Positions 22,949 through 34,195 of a stretch of 35,931 nt of DNA are shown piece by piece. Position numbers and translations under genes: made by a program. Source of the DNA: Chitinivibrionales bacterium. Its GTDB lineage: Bacteria > Fibrobacterota > Chitinivibrionia > Chitinivibrionales > WJKA01. Under the pieces are notes generated by a model. The model searched no databases, was not told the origin of the DNA, and worked only from the letters and a program-made list of their open reading frames with translations. The stretch is from positions 1 through 35,931 of the forward strand of contig WJLZ01000165.1 in the NCBI GenBank assembly GCA_014728215.1. The letters run 5' to 3'. Numbering within the stretch: the stretch's first letter is position 1; the number at the start of each line of letters is the position of its first letter.

Positions 22949-23281
22949 ATGTCAAGTGAATATTTAGCGGAATTTACCGATTCGAATTTTGATGATGAAG
23001 CACTGAAAGCTGATACGCCGGTGGTAGTCGATTTCTGGGCCGAATGGTGTGGGCCATGCAAAATGCTTACGCCGATTATCGAGGATGTTGCCAGGGAATA
23101 TGAAGGCAAAGTGAAAATGGGGAAGCTTAATGTGGACGAAAATCCGAGTACGGCGTCAAAGTACGGCATAACAAGCATTCCGACAGTGTTATTCATTAAA
23201 GACGGAAAAGTTATTGATCAGCAGATCGGCCTTTTAGCAAAAGATCCGCTTAAAGCAAAAATCGACAGTTTACTCGGCTGA
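22949..23281 (+). CDS. trxA: Thioredoxin
   Basis: A 110-residue thioredoxin that reduces protein disulfides in the cytoplasm. The active site WCGPC is at residues 33-37, in the usual context VVDFWAEWCGPCKML. The cis-proline motif is in ITSIPTVLFI, and the length and final helix are typical. No signal peptide is present, so it is the cytosolic type. GAGGAG lies about 7 bases before ATG 22949. A hairpin with a T-rich tail follows at 23306. Confidence 0.96.
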   Translation: MSSEYLAEFTDSNFDDEALKADTPVVVDFWAEWCGPCKMLTPIIEDVAREYEGKVKMGKLNVDENPSTASKYGITSIPTVLFIKDGKVIDQQIGLLAKDPLKAKIDSLLG

Positions 23282-23382: not shown

Positions 23383-24855
23383 ATGAAAATTTTAGCGCTC
23401 AATCCACCCTTTTTGCACAGATATTCCCGTGAATCACGTTCTCCTGCCGTAACCAGGAGCGGTACCCTCTATTATCCTATGTGGCTTGCCTACAGTGTGG
23501 CATATCTTGAGAAACATGACCATGAAGTCCTCTTTATTGATGCTCCGGCCGCCGAACTTGATGCCGCACAGGTTTATGAGAAGGCAAAAGAGTTTCAACC
23601 CCAAATGGCTATTCTTGATACCTCGACACCGTCGATATACAGTGATATCGAAGTTGCAGAAGGCCTTAAAAAGGCTTTGCCCGATATTTTTGTTACTCTG
23701 GTGGGAGTGCATGTTTCCGCCCTGCCCGAAGAGACTCTGCAATTGAATGATGCTGTTGATGCTGTTGCTTTCAGGGAGTATGATGCTACCGTTGTCGAAT
23801 TGGCTGAAAAGATTGTTCACTCCAGAGACGATACTTCACTGGAATCGGTGAAGGGCATTGCTTACAGAACTCAAAAGGGAGAGATTCGCAAAAATGAACC
23901 GCGGCCCTATATCGAAAATCTTGATGATATCCCTCTGGTTTCATCGGTGTATAAACGACATCTTGGAACCAAACCCTATTTTTACGGGCATAGCCGCTAT
24001 CCGCTCGTTGTGATTATTTCTGGGAGAGGCTGTCCTTTTCACTGCACCTATTGTGTTATCCCCCAAACCCTTCAGGGGCATAAATATCGTACTCGATCGG
24101 TTGCCAATGTTGTTGAAGAATTCAGGTATGTTGCCGAGAATATGCCCGAAGTAAAAGAAATTATGATCGAAGATGATACCCTTACCGCCAACAAAAAACG
24201 GTGCAGAGAGTTGTCGGACACATTGATAAAAGAGAAGATGACCCGTATCCCCTGGTCGGCCAATTCCCGGCCGGATGTTGATATTGATACCATGCGGCTC
24301 ATGAAGAAGGCCGGGTGCCGTCTTTTCTGTGTAGGGCTCGAAAGCGGCGATCAGCAAATTCTCGATAATATCAAAAAGGGGACCAAAATTGAACGAATCC
24401 GGCAGTTTGTCAAAGATGCCCGCCGCGCGGGAATTCTTGTTCACGGCTGTTTTATGGTCGGCAACCGGGGAGAAACAAGAGAAACCCTCGAAAAAACATT
24501 GCAGTTGGCCAAGGATTTGAATCCCGATACTGCACAATTTTATCCTATAATGATCTATCCCGGTACCGAGGATTACGCCTATTTCGATGAAAAGGGATGG
24601 ATGGTTACGCATAATTTCAGGAAATGGCTTAATGAAGAAGGACTCCATTCTTCGGTTGTGTCCAATCCCGATTTAACCTATGAAGAACTGTGTGCATTTT
24701 GTGACCGCTCCCGAAGAGAATTTTATCTTCGCTTTTCATATATGACTGCCAAATTTATCCAGATTATGCGTCATCCCGGTGAAGCGAGGCGGGTATTTAA
24801 GGGGTTTCTGAATATCTACAAATATCTTTTGAATTCTTCACCCAAATCCGGATGA
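23383..24855 (+). CDS. Cobalamin-binding-type radical SAM protein
   Basis: A 490-residue protein with an N-terminal B12-binding-like Rossmann domain (about residues 1-145, MKILALNPPF and FVTLVGVHVSALPEETL) and a radical SAM domain starting near 205. The 4Fe-4S cluster motif is C217-x3-C221-x2-C224 (GRGCPFHCTYC), followed by IKEIMIEDDTLT-like and LFCVGLESGDQQIL segments typical of the class B/B12 family (related in layout to HpnJ and BchE). These enzymes usually methylate or rearrange carbon skeletons of lipids, pigments or sugars. The reaction here is unknown. It leads a tight run with a membrane glycosyltransferase (19 bases), formyltransferase and deacetylase, suggesting modification of a glycolipid or its carrier. 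Confidence 0.88.
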   Translation: MKILALNPPFLHRYSRESRSPAVTRSGTLYYPMWLAYSVAYLEKHDHEVLFIDAPAAELDAAQVYEKAKEFQPQMAILDTSTPSIYSDIEVAEGLKKALPDIFVTLVGVHVSALPEETLQLNDAVDAVAFREYDATVVELAEKIVHSRDDTSLESVKGIAYRTQKGEIRKNEPRPYIENLDDIPLVSSVYKRHLGTKPYFYGHSRYPLVVIISGRGCPFHCTYCVIPQTLQGHKYRTRSVANVVEEFRYVAENMPEVKEIMIEDDTLTANKKRCRELSDTLIKEKMTRIPWSANSRPDVDIDTMRLMKKAGCRLFCVGLESGDQQILDNIKKGTKIERIRQFVKDARRAGILVHGCFMVGNRGETRETLEKTLQLAKDLNPDTAQFYPIMIYPGTEDYAYFDEKGWMVTHNFRKWLNEEGLHSSVVSNPDLTYEELCAFCDRSRREFYLRFSYMTAKFIQIMRHPGEARRVFKGFLNIYKYLLNSSPKSG

Positions 24856-24874
24856 TACCCTGTTTCACGAAACC

Positions 24875-26041
24875 ATGGCAGTAACCATCAGTGCAACAAT
24901 ACTCTTCTGGCTTTCACTCTTCCTTTTGATCTGGGCCTATGGAGGATTCTCTTTTTTCCTCTCCTTTGTGAGCAGGTTTGTTAAAAAACCGGTAAGAGAT
25001 TTTTCCTTTAAGCCAGCGATTACAATTTTTATTCCCGCTTATAATGAAGAAAAAGTAATTGCCGAAAAGATAGACAATTGCCTTGCCTTAGACTATCCCC
25101 GGGATCGTCTCGAAATAATGGTGTGTTCCGATTGCAGTTCTGATAAAACCGTTGCAATCGCGCAGTCGTACGCCGGTAAGGGGGTTAAGGTTTTTGATTA
25201 CCGGGAGCGCTCGGGCAAGACCGGCATGATAAACAAAGCCGTTCCTGTGGCTCAAGGAGAGATTGTCGTTCTTACCGATGCCAACACCATGTTTGAAACC
25301 GATGCCGTGTCGAAAATGATAAGCATGTATTCGTCGGAGAAAATCGGCGCTGTTTTGGGGCAGGTCAAACTCCGGGTGCCCGATCTGGGATATGGGCTGG
25401 ATAAAGAGGTGGTATACAGAAGTTTTGAGGCGGAACTCAAATACAGAGAAGGTCTGTTCGGTACTGCTCAGGGGGCCTTTGGGGGAATGTATTCCATTAG
25501 AAAAAAACTCTTTAAACCTTTGCCTCCCAATGCATATTCCAATGATGATTTTCTTACCCCCATGAAAATAATGAGCAGAGGGTATAAGGTTTTATTTGAT
25601 AAAGAAGCCGTTTCGCATGAAGATACGGCGATGAATGTGGAGGAAGAATTCAGGAGACGGGTACGGATTGGTGCGGGAAATTTTCAATCGTTCTTTTTTC
25701 TTCTTCCCATGCTCAATCCTTTTCGGGGAACAGCGTTCCTTTTTTATTTATCTCATAAAGTCCTGCGCTGGTTTTCTCCCATGCTTTTAATTCTTGTACT
25801 GACAGCGAACATTTTTTTGATTTCCGAGCCGATTTATCTGGTGTTGTTTCTCTTTCAGGGAGCCTTTTATGCTACTGCCTTAATCGGCTGGATATTATCG
25901 AAAGTAAAAATCAATCTGCCTATGGTTTCATCAATTTATCACTTTTCTTCTATGAATCTGGCGGTGCTTCTGGGTTTTTTCAAATGCCTTCGGGGCATAA
26001 AGAGTGCAGTCTGGCAATCGACGGAAAGGGCAGTCGTATGA
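24875..26041 (+). CDS. Membrane family 2 glycosyltransferase, processive type
   Basis: A 388-residue inverting GT2 with one N-terminal membrane helix (about residues 6-28), a cytoplasmic GT-A domain, and about three C-terminal membrane helices from 285 onward. The catalytic domain has ITIFIPAYNEE, VCSDCSSDKT, VVLTDANTMF (D-x-N instead of D-x-D) and NDDFLTPMKI, then RRRVRIGAGNFQSFF where processive synthases have QxxRW. The layout recalls PgaC, NodC and hyaluronan-synthase-type enzymes, which extend and export a polysaccharide, but a single-transfer role on a lipid carrier is also possible. It overlaps the formyltransferase by four bases (ATGA), indicating coupling. Confidence 0.88.
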   Translation: MAVTISATILFWLSLFLLIWAYGGFSFFLSFVSRFVKKPVRDFSFKPAITIFIPAYNEEKVIAEKIDNCLALDYPRDRLEIMVCSDCSSDKTVAIAQSYAGKGVKVFDYRERSGKTGMINKAVPVAQGEIVVLTDANTMFETDAVSKMISMYSSEKIGAVLGQVKLRVPDLGYGLDKEVVYRSFEAELKYREGLFGTAQGAFGGMYSIRKKLFKPLPPNAYSNDDFLTPMKIMSRGYKVLFDKEAVSHEDTAMNVEEEFRRRVRIGAGNFQSFFFLLPMLNPFRGTAFLFYLSHKVLRWFSPMLLILVLTANIFLISEPIYLVLFLFQGAFYATALIGWILSKVKINLPMVSSIYHFSSMNLAVLLGFFKCLRGIKSAVWQSTERAVV

Positions 26042-26787
26042 AAGTGTTGATAATTACCGAAGAAGATGTTTTTTATATTTATGAATTCTTCAAACATTTT
26101 TTCCCCCTTGCCCGCAAAGCAGATTATACGGTGAGTGGTATTACCATCTTACCCCCTTTTAACAAGCGCTCTACGGCAGCATTGGCAAAACAGATGTATG
26201 GTTTTTACGGTCTGTTCAATTTTCTCAGGATGGGTTCGCTCTATGCATTCCGAAAATTTGCGGGGTTCAGTGTCGAGCAACTTGCCAAAAAGTACGGCAT
26301 ACCTTCTCTGGACACTCAAAATGTCAACGATCCCGCCTATATCGAAAAAGTCAGAGAAAACAGGATCGACTGCATTGTTTCGATTGCCGCGCCCCAGATC
26401 TTTAAAGGCCCTCTGCTTGATTCCGTTCCCAAAGGATGTATTAATTCTCATTCGGCGCTGCTTCCCGAGAATAAGGGGATGATGCCTGTTTTCTGGGGTA
26501 TGTATTCGGGTAACCCGTATATAGGTGTGACAATTCATTATATGGATAAAAAACTCGATAGCGGAGATATTGTCAAGCAGAAAAAAGTGGAAGTCGGCAA
26601 TGAATCACTCCATGAAATGATAATAAAAACCAAGCGTTTAAGCGCCCATCTTATCGATGAATCGCTCCGGGAAATAATGGCCGGCAGAGTACAACGTAGT
26701 CCGATGCCTCAGGGAGGGTCGTATCATTCATTCCCAACGCCGCAGGAAGTGAAAGAATTTAAGCGGCGGGGCAAGAGAATTTTATAG
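26038..26787 (+). CDS. Formyltransferase-family enzyme (sugar or amino-sugar N-formylation)
   Basis: From ATG 26038 the protein has 249 residues with a formyl_trans_N fold. It contains the 10-formyltetrahydrofolate site and catalytic Asn136 and His138 in GCINSHSALLPENKG, plus Asp177 in SGDIV, the triad conserved in methionyl-tRNA formyltransferase, ArnA and sugar N-formyltransferases. It lacks the C-terminal tRNA-binding domain of Fmt and is fused to no dehydrogenase, unlike ArnA. I chose this start because it overlaps the GT2 stop; the longer ORF from 25984 lies inside the glycosyltransferase. Neighbours point to an amino sugar on a glycan or lipid carrier as substrate. Confidence 0.87.
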   Translation: MKVLIITEEDVFYIYEFFKHFFPLARKADYTVSGITILPPFNKRSTAALAKQMYGFYGLFNFLRMGSLYAFRKFAGFSVEQLAKKYGIPSLDTQNVNDPAYIEKVRENRIDCIVSIAAPQIFKGPLLDSVPKGCINSHSALLPENKGMMPVFWGMYSGNPYIGVTIHYMDKKLDSGDIVKQKKVEVGNESLHEMIIKTKRLSAHLIDESLREIMAGRVQRSPMPQGGSYHSFPTPQEVKEFKRRGKRIL

Positions 26788-26851
26788 GCGGAAATGTATT
26801 TTGTAATTAGTGATTCTCGGATACGAACCATTAGAAAAAAACGTCTGCACC

Positions 26852-27670
26852 ATGAAAAATGCCTTTTCTATCGACCTTGAAGATTGGTTCTGTGTTAATA
26901 ATCTCAAGGAGGTCATCGATTATTCTTCATGGGATACAAAAGAGCTTCGCGTCGTACCGAATACCCGAAAACTCCTCTCTATTCTCGATACGCACAACGT
27001 AAAATGTACGGTTTTTGTTCTAGGATGGATCGCCGAACGAGTTCCTGAACTGATTAGAGAAATTGATGAGGCCGGTCATGAGATTGCTACCCATGGATAT
27101 GCTCATTTATTTGTGAAAGAGATAACCCCCGATATTTTTGAAAAGGATCTCAAGGAATCATTGAAGATGATCAGGGCAGCCGTTGATACGGAGATCAGAG
27201 GCTATCGTGCCCCTTCATTTTCTGTTAAAGTAGAACAGAAAGGGATTTTCGACATACTGGCACGAAATGGAATCCGATACGACTCATCAGTGTTTCCCAT
27301 TGCATTTCATCCGGACTACGGCAATTCTCTGTCCTGCCTTTCTCCCTTTAAAGTCACCGAAGAAATTATCGAATTTCCCATGGGCTGTTTTCGTCAATTC
27401 GGTGTTAATCTGCCCTGCTGCGGAGGAGGTTATTTCAGGTTGCTCCCCTACCGATTTATCGCCCACGGCATTCGGCAGTGCAATAAAGAAGGAAGGCCGG
27501 TTGTTTTTTACATTCATCCGTGGGAACTCGACCCAGGGCAGCCAAGGGTTAAATTGCCGGCGATAAAAACATTCAGGCATTATTATAATCTCGAAAAAAC
27601 AGAGGTGCGGCTTAATCGCCTTCTGTCTCAATTTGAGTTCGATACGATCAGGTCGGTTTACGGAATATAG
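26852..27670 (+). CDS. Polysaccharide deacetylase, XrtA/PEP-CTERM-locus type
   Basis: A 272-residue NodB-fold carbohydrate esterase family 4 protein, starting MKNAFSIDLEDWF, which is how the exopolysaccharide/PEP-CTERM-locus subfamily begins. Metal and catalytic motifs: Asp8 with E10/D11, H81-x3-H85 (HGYAH), GYRAPSFS near 117-124, and FYIHPWELDP near the C-terminus; the region after SPFKV resembles DUF3473. No signal peptide is seen, so it acts in the cytoplasm or on a carrier-linked substrate at the membrane. A GTG at 26810 would add 14 unconserved residues. By analogy with ArnD it could deformylate rather than deacetylate; this is inference from the adjacent formyltransferase. Confidence 0.9.
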   Translation: MKNAFSIDLEDWFCVNNLKEVIDYSSWDTKELRVVPNTRKLLSILDTHNVKCTVFVLGWIAERVPELIREIDEAGHEIATHGYAHLFVKEITPDIFEKDLKESLKMIRAAVDTEIRGYRAPSFSVKVEQKGIFDILARNGIRYDSSVFPIAFHPDYGNSLSCLSPFKVTEEIIEFPMGCFRQFGVNLPCCGGGYFRLLPYRFIAHGIRQCNKEGRPVVFYIHPWELDPGQPRVKLPAIKTFRHYYNLEKTEVRLNRLLSQFEFDTIRSVYGI

Positions 27671-27711: not shown

Positions 27712-28209
27712 ATGAAGCAGGAGAATTGTCTGGAAGTTATTCCTGAAGCACTCGGACAGATTACGGGTAAGGGCGCTTTTCTAACGGTTGCTGATGGCGA
27801 CAGGCTTAACACAATGACTATCGGATGGGCAACGATAGGATATGTATGGAAAAGAAATATTATGACTGCAGCGGTGCGCCTGAGCCGTCATACGTTCTCA
27901 CTGATTGAAAATTCGGATAATTTCAGTGTATCGGTTCCCACCGTCGATATGGCGAAGGAACTTGCTTTCTGTGGATCCAAATCGGGAAGCGACTATGATA
28001 AATTCAAGGAATGCAATCTCGAGATTGTCGATCCACAGAAAATCACAACACCGATCATAAAAATGCCGGGGCTTCATTTTGAATGCACAATCGTTTACAA
28101 ATCAGCCATGGATCCATCTTTTATGACTCCTGATTTTGAAGCGATATACCCGAAAAAGGATTATCATACGCTCTATTATGGTGAAATAGTTGATTGCTAC
28201 CGTATCTGA
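27712..28209 (+). CDS. Flavin reductase-like FMN-binding protein
   Basis: A 165-residue split-barrel flavin protein of the flavin_reduct/DIM6-NtaB type. It opens with EALGQITGKGAFLTVADGDRLNTMTIGWATIG, split here over residues 11-42, followed by RLSRHTFSLIENSDNFSVSVP, matching FMN-binding strands and the conserved His. It probably binds FMN and transfers electrons from NAD(P)H; substrate unknown. Some relatives are annotated as rubredoxin-like oxidoreductases. A strong ribosome site GAGGAG precedes ATG 27712. It follows the deacetylase by 41 bases and precedes the HAD gene by 37 bases, so could be in the same operon, but the link to glycan chemistry is unclear. Confidence 0.85.
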   Translation: MKQENCLEVIPEALGQITGKGAFLTVADGDRLNTMTIGWATIGYVWKRNIMTAAVRLSRHTFSLIENSDNFSVSVPTVDMAKELAFCGSKSGSDYDKFKECNLEIVDPQKITTPIIKMPGLHFECTIVYKSAMDPSFMTPDFEAIYPKKDYHTLYYGEIVDCYRI

Positions 28210-32158: not shown

Positions 32159-34195
32159 TCAGTCCAGACCGGCAGTGTTTTTGCCGTCCATAATGACGAG
32201 GCCTTTGAAAAATTCGCCGGCAGTTCCGGCGGATTTGAATGGTCGTGGTGCCTTTCCGACACCGACATAAAATCCGACATTATAAACGATATCGTCTTTG
32301 TGCGCCTGACGGGCTTCGAGTCTGACCGCCATCATGTCGAGCCGGCAGTTTTTCCAGTATGCCGGTGCATTTCGTTCACCGCCGGGAAGATAGATAAGTC
32401 CCTTGGTTCTTCCCCACAGAAATTGGAAAAGAAGATGGTTTTCGATACTTGCCCAGAATGCGGGGCAGGATATTTCTCTGTATTTTTTCTCGGATGCAAT
32501 AAATGTTTCCCGCAATGAGCCGCTGTGAAAATTGAGTGTGTTGCCGGTCCAATGATCGTTGACCAGGTAGATGGGTGATAAATATTGTTCATTCATCTCG
32601 AGATTTTTTTCGGCGCGAATTCTGTCAAGAACAATGAGCCCGTCTTCGCCCCATGTCAAAACACGGATATCGCGTGTAAGAAGTGTTTCATTCTGTGCAT
32701 TGCGGTACAATATCCTTCCACAGGTATCGAATCCGTCTTTCTGATAGCGATCATTATGAAATGCTACTTTCCAATGTGAAACCCTCTCTTTTACTGAAGG
32801 AATTCCAAACAGACCGGCGCGAAAGGGGGCTACCAGTTCAGGTTGAATATTTATATTCATATGAGCAATGGGATGACCGTTAATCGCTTTCCATGCCATG
32901 CTTCGCAGGAGCCGGCTGTTTTTCCGGTAACATATTTGTACAAAAGGATAAATCTGTTTCACGTTCAAGGCGTTGTCAACCTGGCCGGAGGAATAGAACC
33001 GAGCTTCTTTCCGATGTTGCAGGGTTGCGAGCATTGCGAGTTCGAACCCAACCTGACTCTGAAAAAAGAGGGTCCACCCTTCATAGGACGGCTCAAAGCC
33101 CGGTATCCATTGATTGGTTTTTTCGGCATCATTCGTCACGAGAGTATCGATCCAGGCAAGCAGCCGGGCAACCAGGCGCATTGCGCGGGGATCGTTGTTC
33201 CAGAGACCCCATGCCAGGGCAAAGGGGCGGGGTATGAACATGGGAAGATCCTGGCCGCCGGGTTCATAAATCATTCCTGTAGGAAGGCAGAATCGTAAAA
33301 GAACATCAAACGCTTCCTGATGGTGTTTTCGTTGAAAATATTCGGGTGGTTGGCGTCCGCGTAAGGAATAGGCTGCCATGGCCAAAACAATCCATCCGCC
33401 GTATGATAAGATAACCGGGTGGAAAAAATCATGGTTTTCGGCAGTCATATCGGGATAGAGCGTTTGCGTACAGGTCATCTGTGCAACCGATTTGCCACAG
33501 TATTCGGTATGATCTGCCTTGTCATAGATGCAGGTCGCTGTATTAAGCGCCCATATTTGAAGAGCATTTTCCCATTCGGTGACATGATCATGTTCGGGCA
33601 TCATATTAATTGCCCATGCCAGTACGAGCGCATCCTGGGCATTTTCTTCAACTTTCGTATCAATTTCACAACCGCTGGGCGGTAAAATGCCAATAAACCT
33701 GTCGGCTTCGAAGGCAACAATTGCATCAATTTTGTTCAGCAACTCTTTTGAAAGGTGTTTTTCGGCTAAAAATGCTGTCAGCGCCATTATAGAAGCCCAG
33801 AGGCTTGAGCGCCAATTCTCACCCCATCGCTTTCTCTCAAGAAAGGATTCCACATTCAGTGAACCGGTGAGATGCGTATTGCATGCCCATTCAAGTCCAT
33901 GGTTTAATTTTTCAATAAGCTCTTTTTCGGCTATAATTTCTTGGATCGTTTCCGTTTCATTTTTGTATAAATAGGCGGCCAGAATACAGAGAACATGAAG
34001 ATGGGGGCGTACGACGTATTCGATAACTGGTGAAGAAGAGGCAACATGGTGCATGTTGAATTTTTCGGGATTTGTGGAGCCGAAAATTCCGTTAGTTTGA
34101 TCGACTTGATGCCATGATTTTATATAAAAGGGAAGGCCATAGGAGAGGAGCTGGAATATCTTATGTGATTCGAGTTTTTCGGAAAAATGAAGCAT
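32159..34195 (-). CDS. Large helical-toroid plus beta-sandwich protein, polysaccharide-lyase-like
   Basis: A 678-residue protein without a signal peptide or membrane helix. The first two thirds are rich in amphipathic helices with spaced Trp/Tyr (ARLLAWIDTL, SYGGWIVLAMAAYSLRG, FALAWGLWNNDPRAM), as in alpha/alpha-toroid lyases and glycosidases. The last third is beta-rich (LTWGEDGLIVLDRIRAE and YLSPIYLVNDHWTG), reminiscent of the heparinase II/III C-terminal sheet domain. I cannot place catalytic residues, so this is fold-level inference and the family may be new. TAAGGA upstream of ATG 34195 is formed by the stop of the 76-aa gene 14 bases before it. A cytoplasmic enzyme of this kind in a synthesis cluster would be unusual. 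Confidence 0.7.
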   Translation of the reverse strand: MLHFSEKLESHKIFQLLSYGLPFYIKSWHQVDQTNGIFGSTNPEKFNMHHVASSSPVIEYVVRPHLHVLCILAAYLYKNETETIQEIIAEKELIEKLNHGLEWACNTHLTGSLNVESFLERKRWGENWRSSLWASIMALTAFLAEKHLSKELLNKIDAIVAFEADRFIGILPPSGCEIDTKVEENAQDALVLAWAINMMPEHDHVTEWENALQIWALNTATCIYDKADHTEYCGKSVAQMTCTQTLYPDMTAENHDFFHPVILSYGGWIVLAMAAYSLRGRQPPEYFQRKHHQEAFDVLLRFCLPTGMIYEPGGQDLPMFIPRPFALAWGLWNNDPRAMRLVARLLAWIDTLVTNDAEKTNQWIPGFEPSYEGWTLFFQSQVGFELAMLATLQHRKEARFYSSGQVDNALNVKQIYPFVQICYRKNSRLLRSMAWKAINGHPIAHMNINIQPELVAPFRAGLFGIPSVKERVSHWKVAFHNDRYQKDGFDTCGRILYRNAQNETLLTRDIRVLTWGEDGLIVLDRIRAEKNLEMNEQYLSPIYLVNDHWTGNTLNFHSGSLRETFIASEKKYREISCPAFWASIENHLLFQFLWGRTKGLIYLPGGERNAPAYWKNCRLDMMAVRLEARQAHKDDIVYNVGFYVGVGKAPRPFKSAGTAGEFFKGLVIMDGKNTAGLD

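Follow-up and report, generated by a model that had tools for sequence, protein, structure and literature searches.

The window analyzed here is a stretch of 35,931 nucleotides, one contig (WJLZ01000165.1, C165) of the Chitinivibrionales bacterium assembly GCA_014728215.1, and it carries adjacent genes for a radical S-adenosylmethionine (SAM) protein, a membrane glycosyltransferase of family 2 (GT2), a formyltransferase (FT) and a NodB-fold deacetylase at positions 23383-27670. The best explanation of their distribution is that the last three, GT2-FT-NodB (24875-27670), form a three-enzyme glycan unit that is now part of an older locus made up of thioredoxin, radical SAM, GT2 and flavin reductase genes. 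An earlier note on this DNA had described the four genes as one cassette resembling the logic of the aminoarabinose (Arn) pathway. Each gene lies where that note placed it, as an intact open frame on the plus strand. Its block does contain the four genes, but the end drawn at 27670 does not hold, as the flavin reductase gene at 27712-28209 belongs to the locus by synteny and a thioredoxin gene precedes it.

The source genome (G000) is a 5.0 Mb draft that is 96% complete. For the phylum comparison, 168 genomes were each searched with each of the proteins. The radical SAM protein was scored as present at E <= 1e-70 and GT2 at E <= 1e-60, and radical SAM and GT2 genes were treated as adjacent when separated by <=300 base pairs (bp). 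Domain and family calls were made with Pfam and NCBIfam models and their curated cut-offs. A genome of the same genus (G001) has none of these genes and was given little weight because it is 77% complete.

True orthologs of FT occur in 3 of the 168 genomes, namely the source genome, a second genome of the same family (G002) and one from another family (G013). The order GT2-FT-NodB is kept in both of the latter, with overlapping genes or close spacing, and thus spans three genera and two families. Phylogenetic analysis places the three FT-linked GT2s in one clade (100/94) and 25 FT-less GT2s of the order in a separate clade (100/99); the FT-type GT2 is a lineage distinct from the usual GT2 of the older locus. 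The FT-linked NodB proteins group together with moderate support (91/85). Both the GT2 and the NodB tree pair G000 with G002 and leave G013 outside them, the shared branching that joint movement of the genes would be expected to produce. Gene order and matching clades therefore sustain the idea in the earlier note that GT2, FT and NodB act in a coupled manner.

The proposed four-gene cassette fares differently. None of the 167 other genomes has all four genes together, and the radical SAM gene is present in 140 of the 168 genomes compared with 3 for FT. No radical SAM gene stands beside GT2-FT-NodB in G002 or G013: the G002 copy is on a separate contig from the unit and is 50% identical to that of the window, and G013 has no radical SAM gene at the threshold used. 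Most genomes with the radical SAM gene are without a NodB of the window’s family. The radical SAM gene is thus an ancestral, long-standing neighbour that is independent of the FT unit.

The older locus can be recognized across the order. Homologues of GT2 are found in 149 of the 168 genomes, and in 21 genomes of the order the radical SAM and GT2 genes are adjacent. This pair is usually preceded by genes for a small protein of ~110 amino acids and thioredoxin, and at most loci of the order it is thioredoxin that immediately precedes the radical SAM gene. Genes for GT9, a serine/threonine kinase and an M23 peptidase are often nearby. The flavin reductase gene is located 3' of GT2 in three genomes (G010, G022 and G025) and between radical SAM and GT2 in two others (G030 and G035). 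In the window, FT and NodB separate GT2 from the flavin reductase gene. Because flavin reductase follows the radical SAM-GT2 pair elsewhere, FT-NodB was either added to the window locus or lost from the others. One block in G030 (L171:7484-12272) contains radical SAM, flavin reductase, NodB, SAM methyltransferase and GT2 genes, with the methyltransferase in FT’s place. In the NodB tree, the protein of this block is the sister of the FT-linked trio (90/95), which provides a second link of NodB to the radical SAM-GT2 locus.

Other families of the phylum have unrelated radical SAM neighbours, including MORN repeat proteins, a class III aminotransferase and, in family f11, a PurN-like formyltransferase. 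In two f11 genera, the radical SAM gene adjoins a gene for this formyltransferase of 222-245 amino acids (L083:7486-9847 and L084:8118-10450); the protein matches the whole Formyl_trans_N model and is probably unrelated to the window FT. At three GT2 loci from families outside the order (L123, L129 and L130), a thioredoxin or thioredoxin-like gene precedes GT2, and this association of thioredoxin with GT2 may predate the pairing of radical SAM with GT2.

The window GT2 is hydrophobic near both of its ends, in segments at residues 1-33 and about 296-341, and its gene overlaps that of FT by 4 bp. The view that this enzyme looks processive is weakened by its sequence, since PgaC, the best model, is matched below its cut-off (Table 1) and the QxxRW signature of processive GT2s reads RRVRI. 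FT starts at the ATG at 26038, and its relatives have ‘MKVLIITEEDVFY’ in common. PF00551 is the sole domain in the protein; the active-site residues N136-x-H138 and D174 are present, and N-x-H...D is invariant in the six FTs aligned. A housekeeping methionyl-tRNA formyltransferase was ruled out: the window FT does not have the tRNA-binding C-terminal domain PF02911, and a separate full-length Fmt with PF02911 is encoded on contig C222. The closest solved structures include ArnA, PseJ and other sugar formyltransferases, ranked below one Fmt, and FT is considered a putative sugar N-formyltransferase.

The best start for NodB is the ATG at 26852. The protein has all motifs of the CE4 family (SIDLEDW at 6, THGYAH at 80, GYRAPSF at 117, DSSVFP at 144 and YIHPWE at 220), its active-site residues are conserved, and it is the sole protein of this genome above the cut-off of TIGR03006, the model for the polysaccharide deacetylase of the XrtA system. 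No signal peptide or membrane segment was found in the FT or NodB sequences, and the deacetylase is predicted to be cytosolic. A DUF3473 enzyme is followed by a FemAB gene in Nitratidesulfovibrio and neighbours a GNAT gene in G011; FemAB and GNAT are amine-acylating families. In L133 (G162:C49) and other genomes of f11, a DUF3473 deacetylase is fused behind a phosphoglycosyl transferase (684 amino acids; PF02397 and PF11959 at L133), which indicates that DUF3473 deacetylases can act on a fresh lipid-linked sugar. Each f11 genome of genus g40 has 3-4 DUF3473 deacetylases, and the open frames of most are similar in length. Single-sequence AlphaFold models had mean confidence scores (pLDDT) of 36 and 34, too poor for use.

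The radical SAM protein belongs to class B, with a B12-binding domain (PF02310), a radical SAM domain (PF04055) and a CxxxCxxC motif at residues 217-224; the DxHxxG motif is not present in it. HpnJ (TIGR03471) is its closest named family, although the cut-off is not reached, and AprD4 is its nearest relative among solved structures. The substrate of AprD4 is paromamine. An action on a sugar lipid is plausible for the window protein, because HpnJ and AprD4 act on glucosamine-bearing substrates and because the radical SAM gene of G041 overlaps a phosphoglycosyl transferase gene, but its unrelated neighbours in other families of the phylum limit this reading.

The best-supported mechanism, to which we give slightly less than an even chance, is a cytosolic exchange of N-acetyl for N-formyl on a lipid-linked sugar made by GT2. 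The membrane GT2 would add an N-acetyl amino sugar to a lipid-linked acceptor at the cytosolic face, after which the soluble DUF3473 deacetylase would take off the acetyl group and the soluble FT would formylate the freed amine using 10-formyl-tetrahydrofolate. The net result would be an N-acetyl to N-formyl swap before export. In most members of the order the radical SAM protein may act on the same glycolipid, with or without FT and NodB, and thioredoxin and flavin reductase are possible electron donors to it. The sugar, the acceptor, the direction of the reactions and the role of the redox proteins are those that we infer. With the membrane ends of GT2 and the absence of export signals and membrane segments from FT and NodB, all three enzymes should meet at the cytosolic face.

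Pairings of a deacetylase with FT are also found elsewhere. In Haloarcula halobia (L038), an FT gene overlaps a NodB-fold deacetylase gene by 4 bp. On four Rhodobacterales plasmids (Leisingera NJS201, Leisingera NJS204, Leisingera M527 and Antarctobacter heliothermus), FT lies in glycan loci and overlaps by 4 bp a gene for a deacetylase of the PIG-L fold, which is unrelated to that of the window. The domains of these pairs were confirmed with Pfam in four of the five cases and taken from the record annotation for Leisingera M527. In NJS204 and M527, a glycosyltransferase gene comes before the deacetylase-FT pair, and one other gene and then a flippase gene come after it. Since two unrelated deacetylase folds are each coupled to FT, the deacetylase is best read, from gene order, as supplying the amine for FT. 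More tentatively, this could be a general bacterial and archaeal route in which a cytosolic deacetylase of either fold gives an amine to a dedicated FT on a lipid carrier without a nucleotide amino sugar. A search of open-licence papers gave none that couples a deacetylase to a formyltransferase in this manner.

Several observations weigh against the exchange. The substrates and activities of all four proteins are putative assignments from sequence, and four strong sugar-aminotransferase matches in the genome mean that FT could instead take a nucleoside diphosphate-linked amino sugar as its substrate. The Haloarcula NodB is not of the DUF3473 type and is 24% identical to that of the window, and the Leisingera FT is a distant relative with 21% identity. 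The closest outside NodB, that of G030, sits with a methyltransferase instead of FT. The plasmid examples are also scarce, with four from a single bacterial family.

An Arn-like protection cycle would use the same three chemistries in another order: FT would formylate a nucleotide-bound amino sugar, GT2 would move the resulting formamido sugar onto a lipid and NodB would deformylate it. Such a cycle has its precedent in Arn itself, where formylation precedes transfer and the NodB-fold ArnD removes the formyl group (PMC12748117). The window resembles Arn in combining an FT, a membrane GT2 and a NodB-fold hydrolase for a carrier-linked amino sugar, encoded in the order GT2-FT-NodB, and the N-H-D residues are kept in FT. 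However, the NodB protein scores 12.2 bits over about 50 residues against the ArnD model NF011923 (cut-off 382) compared with 321 bits for the XrtA-type polysaccharide deacetylase. ArnC is absent from the best 25 of 29 GT2 model matches, PgaC being the best, and FT scores 83.2 bits against ArnA (cut-off 777) and does not have the ArnA dehydrogenase half (UDP-glucuronic acid decarboxylase). No aminotransferase, ArnB or ArnT-like gene was found in the window. A lack of sugar aminotransferases was dropped as an argument against the cycle, as the genome has them, which counts in its favour. Membership in the Arn pathway is ruled out by these family models. A protection cycle of this type appears rather doubtful here; the deacetylase-FT pairs elsewhere seem to fit deacetylation followed by formylation better than the Arn-type reaction order.

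GT2 and NodB might instead make a partly deacetylated polymer in the manner of PgaC and PgaB while FT formylates another sugar of the same glycan, which we regard as improbable. PgaC being the closest GT2 model and NodB passing a polysaccharide deacetylase model would agree with this, as would the presence in the genome of an exosortase and a PEP-CTERM-like protein, a system tied to exopolysaccharide (PMC1569441). The presence of RRVRI in place of QxxRW argues against it, as do the lack of synthase-dependent export genes alongside and of a signal peptide on NodB, and G013 has the unit and no exosortase. The XrtA/PEP-CTERM loci offer a NodB above the TIGR03006 cut-off in a genome with exosortase as points of likeness. 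In contrast, the window is not in an XrtA locus, has FT instead of a FemAB partner, and has a counterpart in G013 without any exosortase. An exosortase-linked deacetylase proper is likewise not supported by location, as the exosortase gene (146.9 bits) is on contig C62 (L121:5596-7401) and not on that of the deacetylase. The C62 exosortase adjoins a protein whose end resembles a PEP-CTERM sorting signal (VPEPSTISLIGMGLFCLGGFWFSRKK); nearby genes resemble those for asparagine synthase and a sensor kinase.

Least probable, and in our estimate very unlikely, is a single four-protein pathway modelled on HpnI-HpnK-HpnJ, in which N-acetylglucosamine is attached to a lipid by GT2 and deacetylated by NodB, the radical SAM protein rebuilds the sugar and FT caps the amine. 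The published sequence of glycosyltransferase, deacetylase and radical SAM protein, in which HpnJ acts after HpnI and HpnK to make a cyclitol ether from a glucosaminyl lipid (PMC12583986), is the nearest published logic for the radical SAM, GT2 and deacetylase trio, closer than Arn. The affinity of the radical SAM protein to HpnJ and AprD4 and the single block of G030 are consistent with it. The window differs, though, in its HpnJ score below the cut-off (415.8 versus 577.6 bits), its NodB/DUF3473 protein in place of HpnK and its extra FT. The hopanoid pathway itself was ruled out, as the genome has no squalene-hopene cyclase (no PF13249 match). The broad occurrence of the radical SAM gene, mostly in genomes without NodB of the window’s family, and the G013 unit without a radical SAM gene also argue against a joint pathway.

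Table 1. Genes of the locus in the window and the evidence for their assignment (scores in bits, followed by model cut-offs)
Gene product	Position	Strand	Evidence
Thioredoxin	22949..23281	+	TIGR01068 132.5 (cut-off 96.8); synteny
B12-binding-domain (class B) radical SAM protein, HpnJ-like, 490 amino acids	23383..24855	+	PF02310 and PF04055; TIGR03471 (HpnJ) 415.8 (577.6)
Membrane GT2 glycosyltransferase, 388 amino acids	24875..26041	+	PF00535; PgaC 82.5 (422); motifs SDCSSD, TDANT, YSNDD, RRVRI; FT-type clade
Putative formyltransferase (FT), 249 amino acids	26038..26787	+	PF00551; N136/H138/D174; orthologs in G002 and G013 only
DUF3473-type NodB/CE4 polysaccharide deacetylase, 272 amino acids	26852..27670	+	TIGR03006 321.2 (276.2); PF11959 and PF01522; no hydrophobic N-terminus
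Flavin reductase-like protein	27712..28209	+	PF01613; recurrent neighbour of the radical SAM-GT2 pair by synteny

Elsewhere in the window, positions 32159-34195 encode a protein of 678 amino acids with no Pfam match; a 64% identical protein occurs in G002 in the same order near GSCFA, GT9 and epimerase genes. A scan of genome contigs gave one weak match, in Alistipes, and a DNA-level search of plasmids gave no match. Promoter and terminator counts were close to the shuffled expectation.

The locus combines known and ordinary parts in an uncommon but recurring manner. The analysis sets apart the radical SAM-GT2 pair, which is widespread, uncharacterised and retained across most of the order, from a rarer deacetylase-FT add-on, and each can be studied alone. 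If the exchange of acetyl for formyl groups is true, N-formyl sugars could be made after transfer to the carrier, and searches that rely on nucleotide-sugar genes would miss a class of loci.

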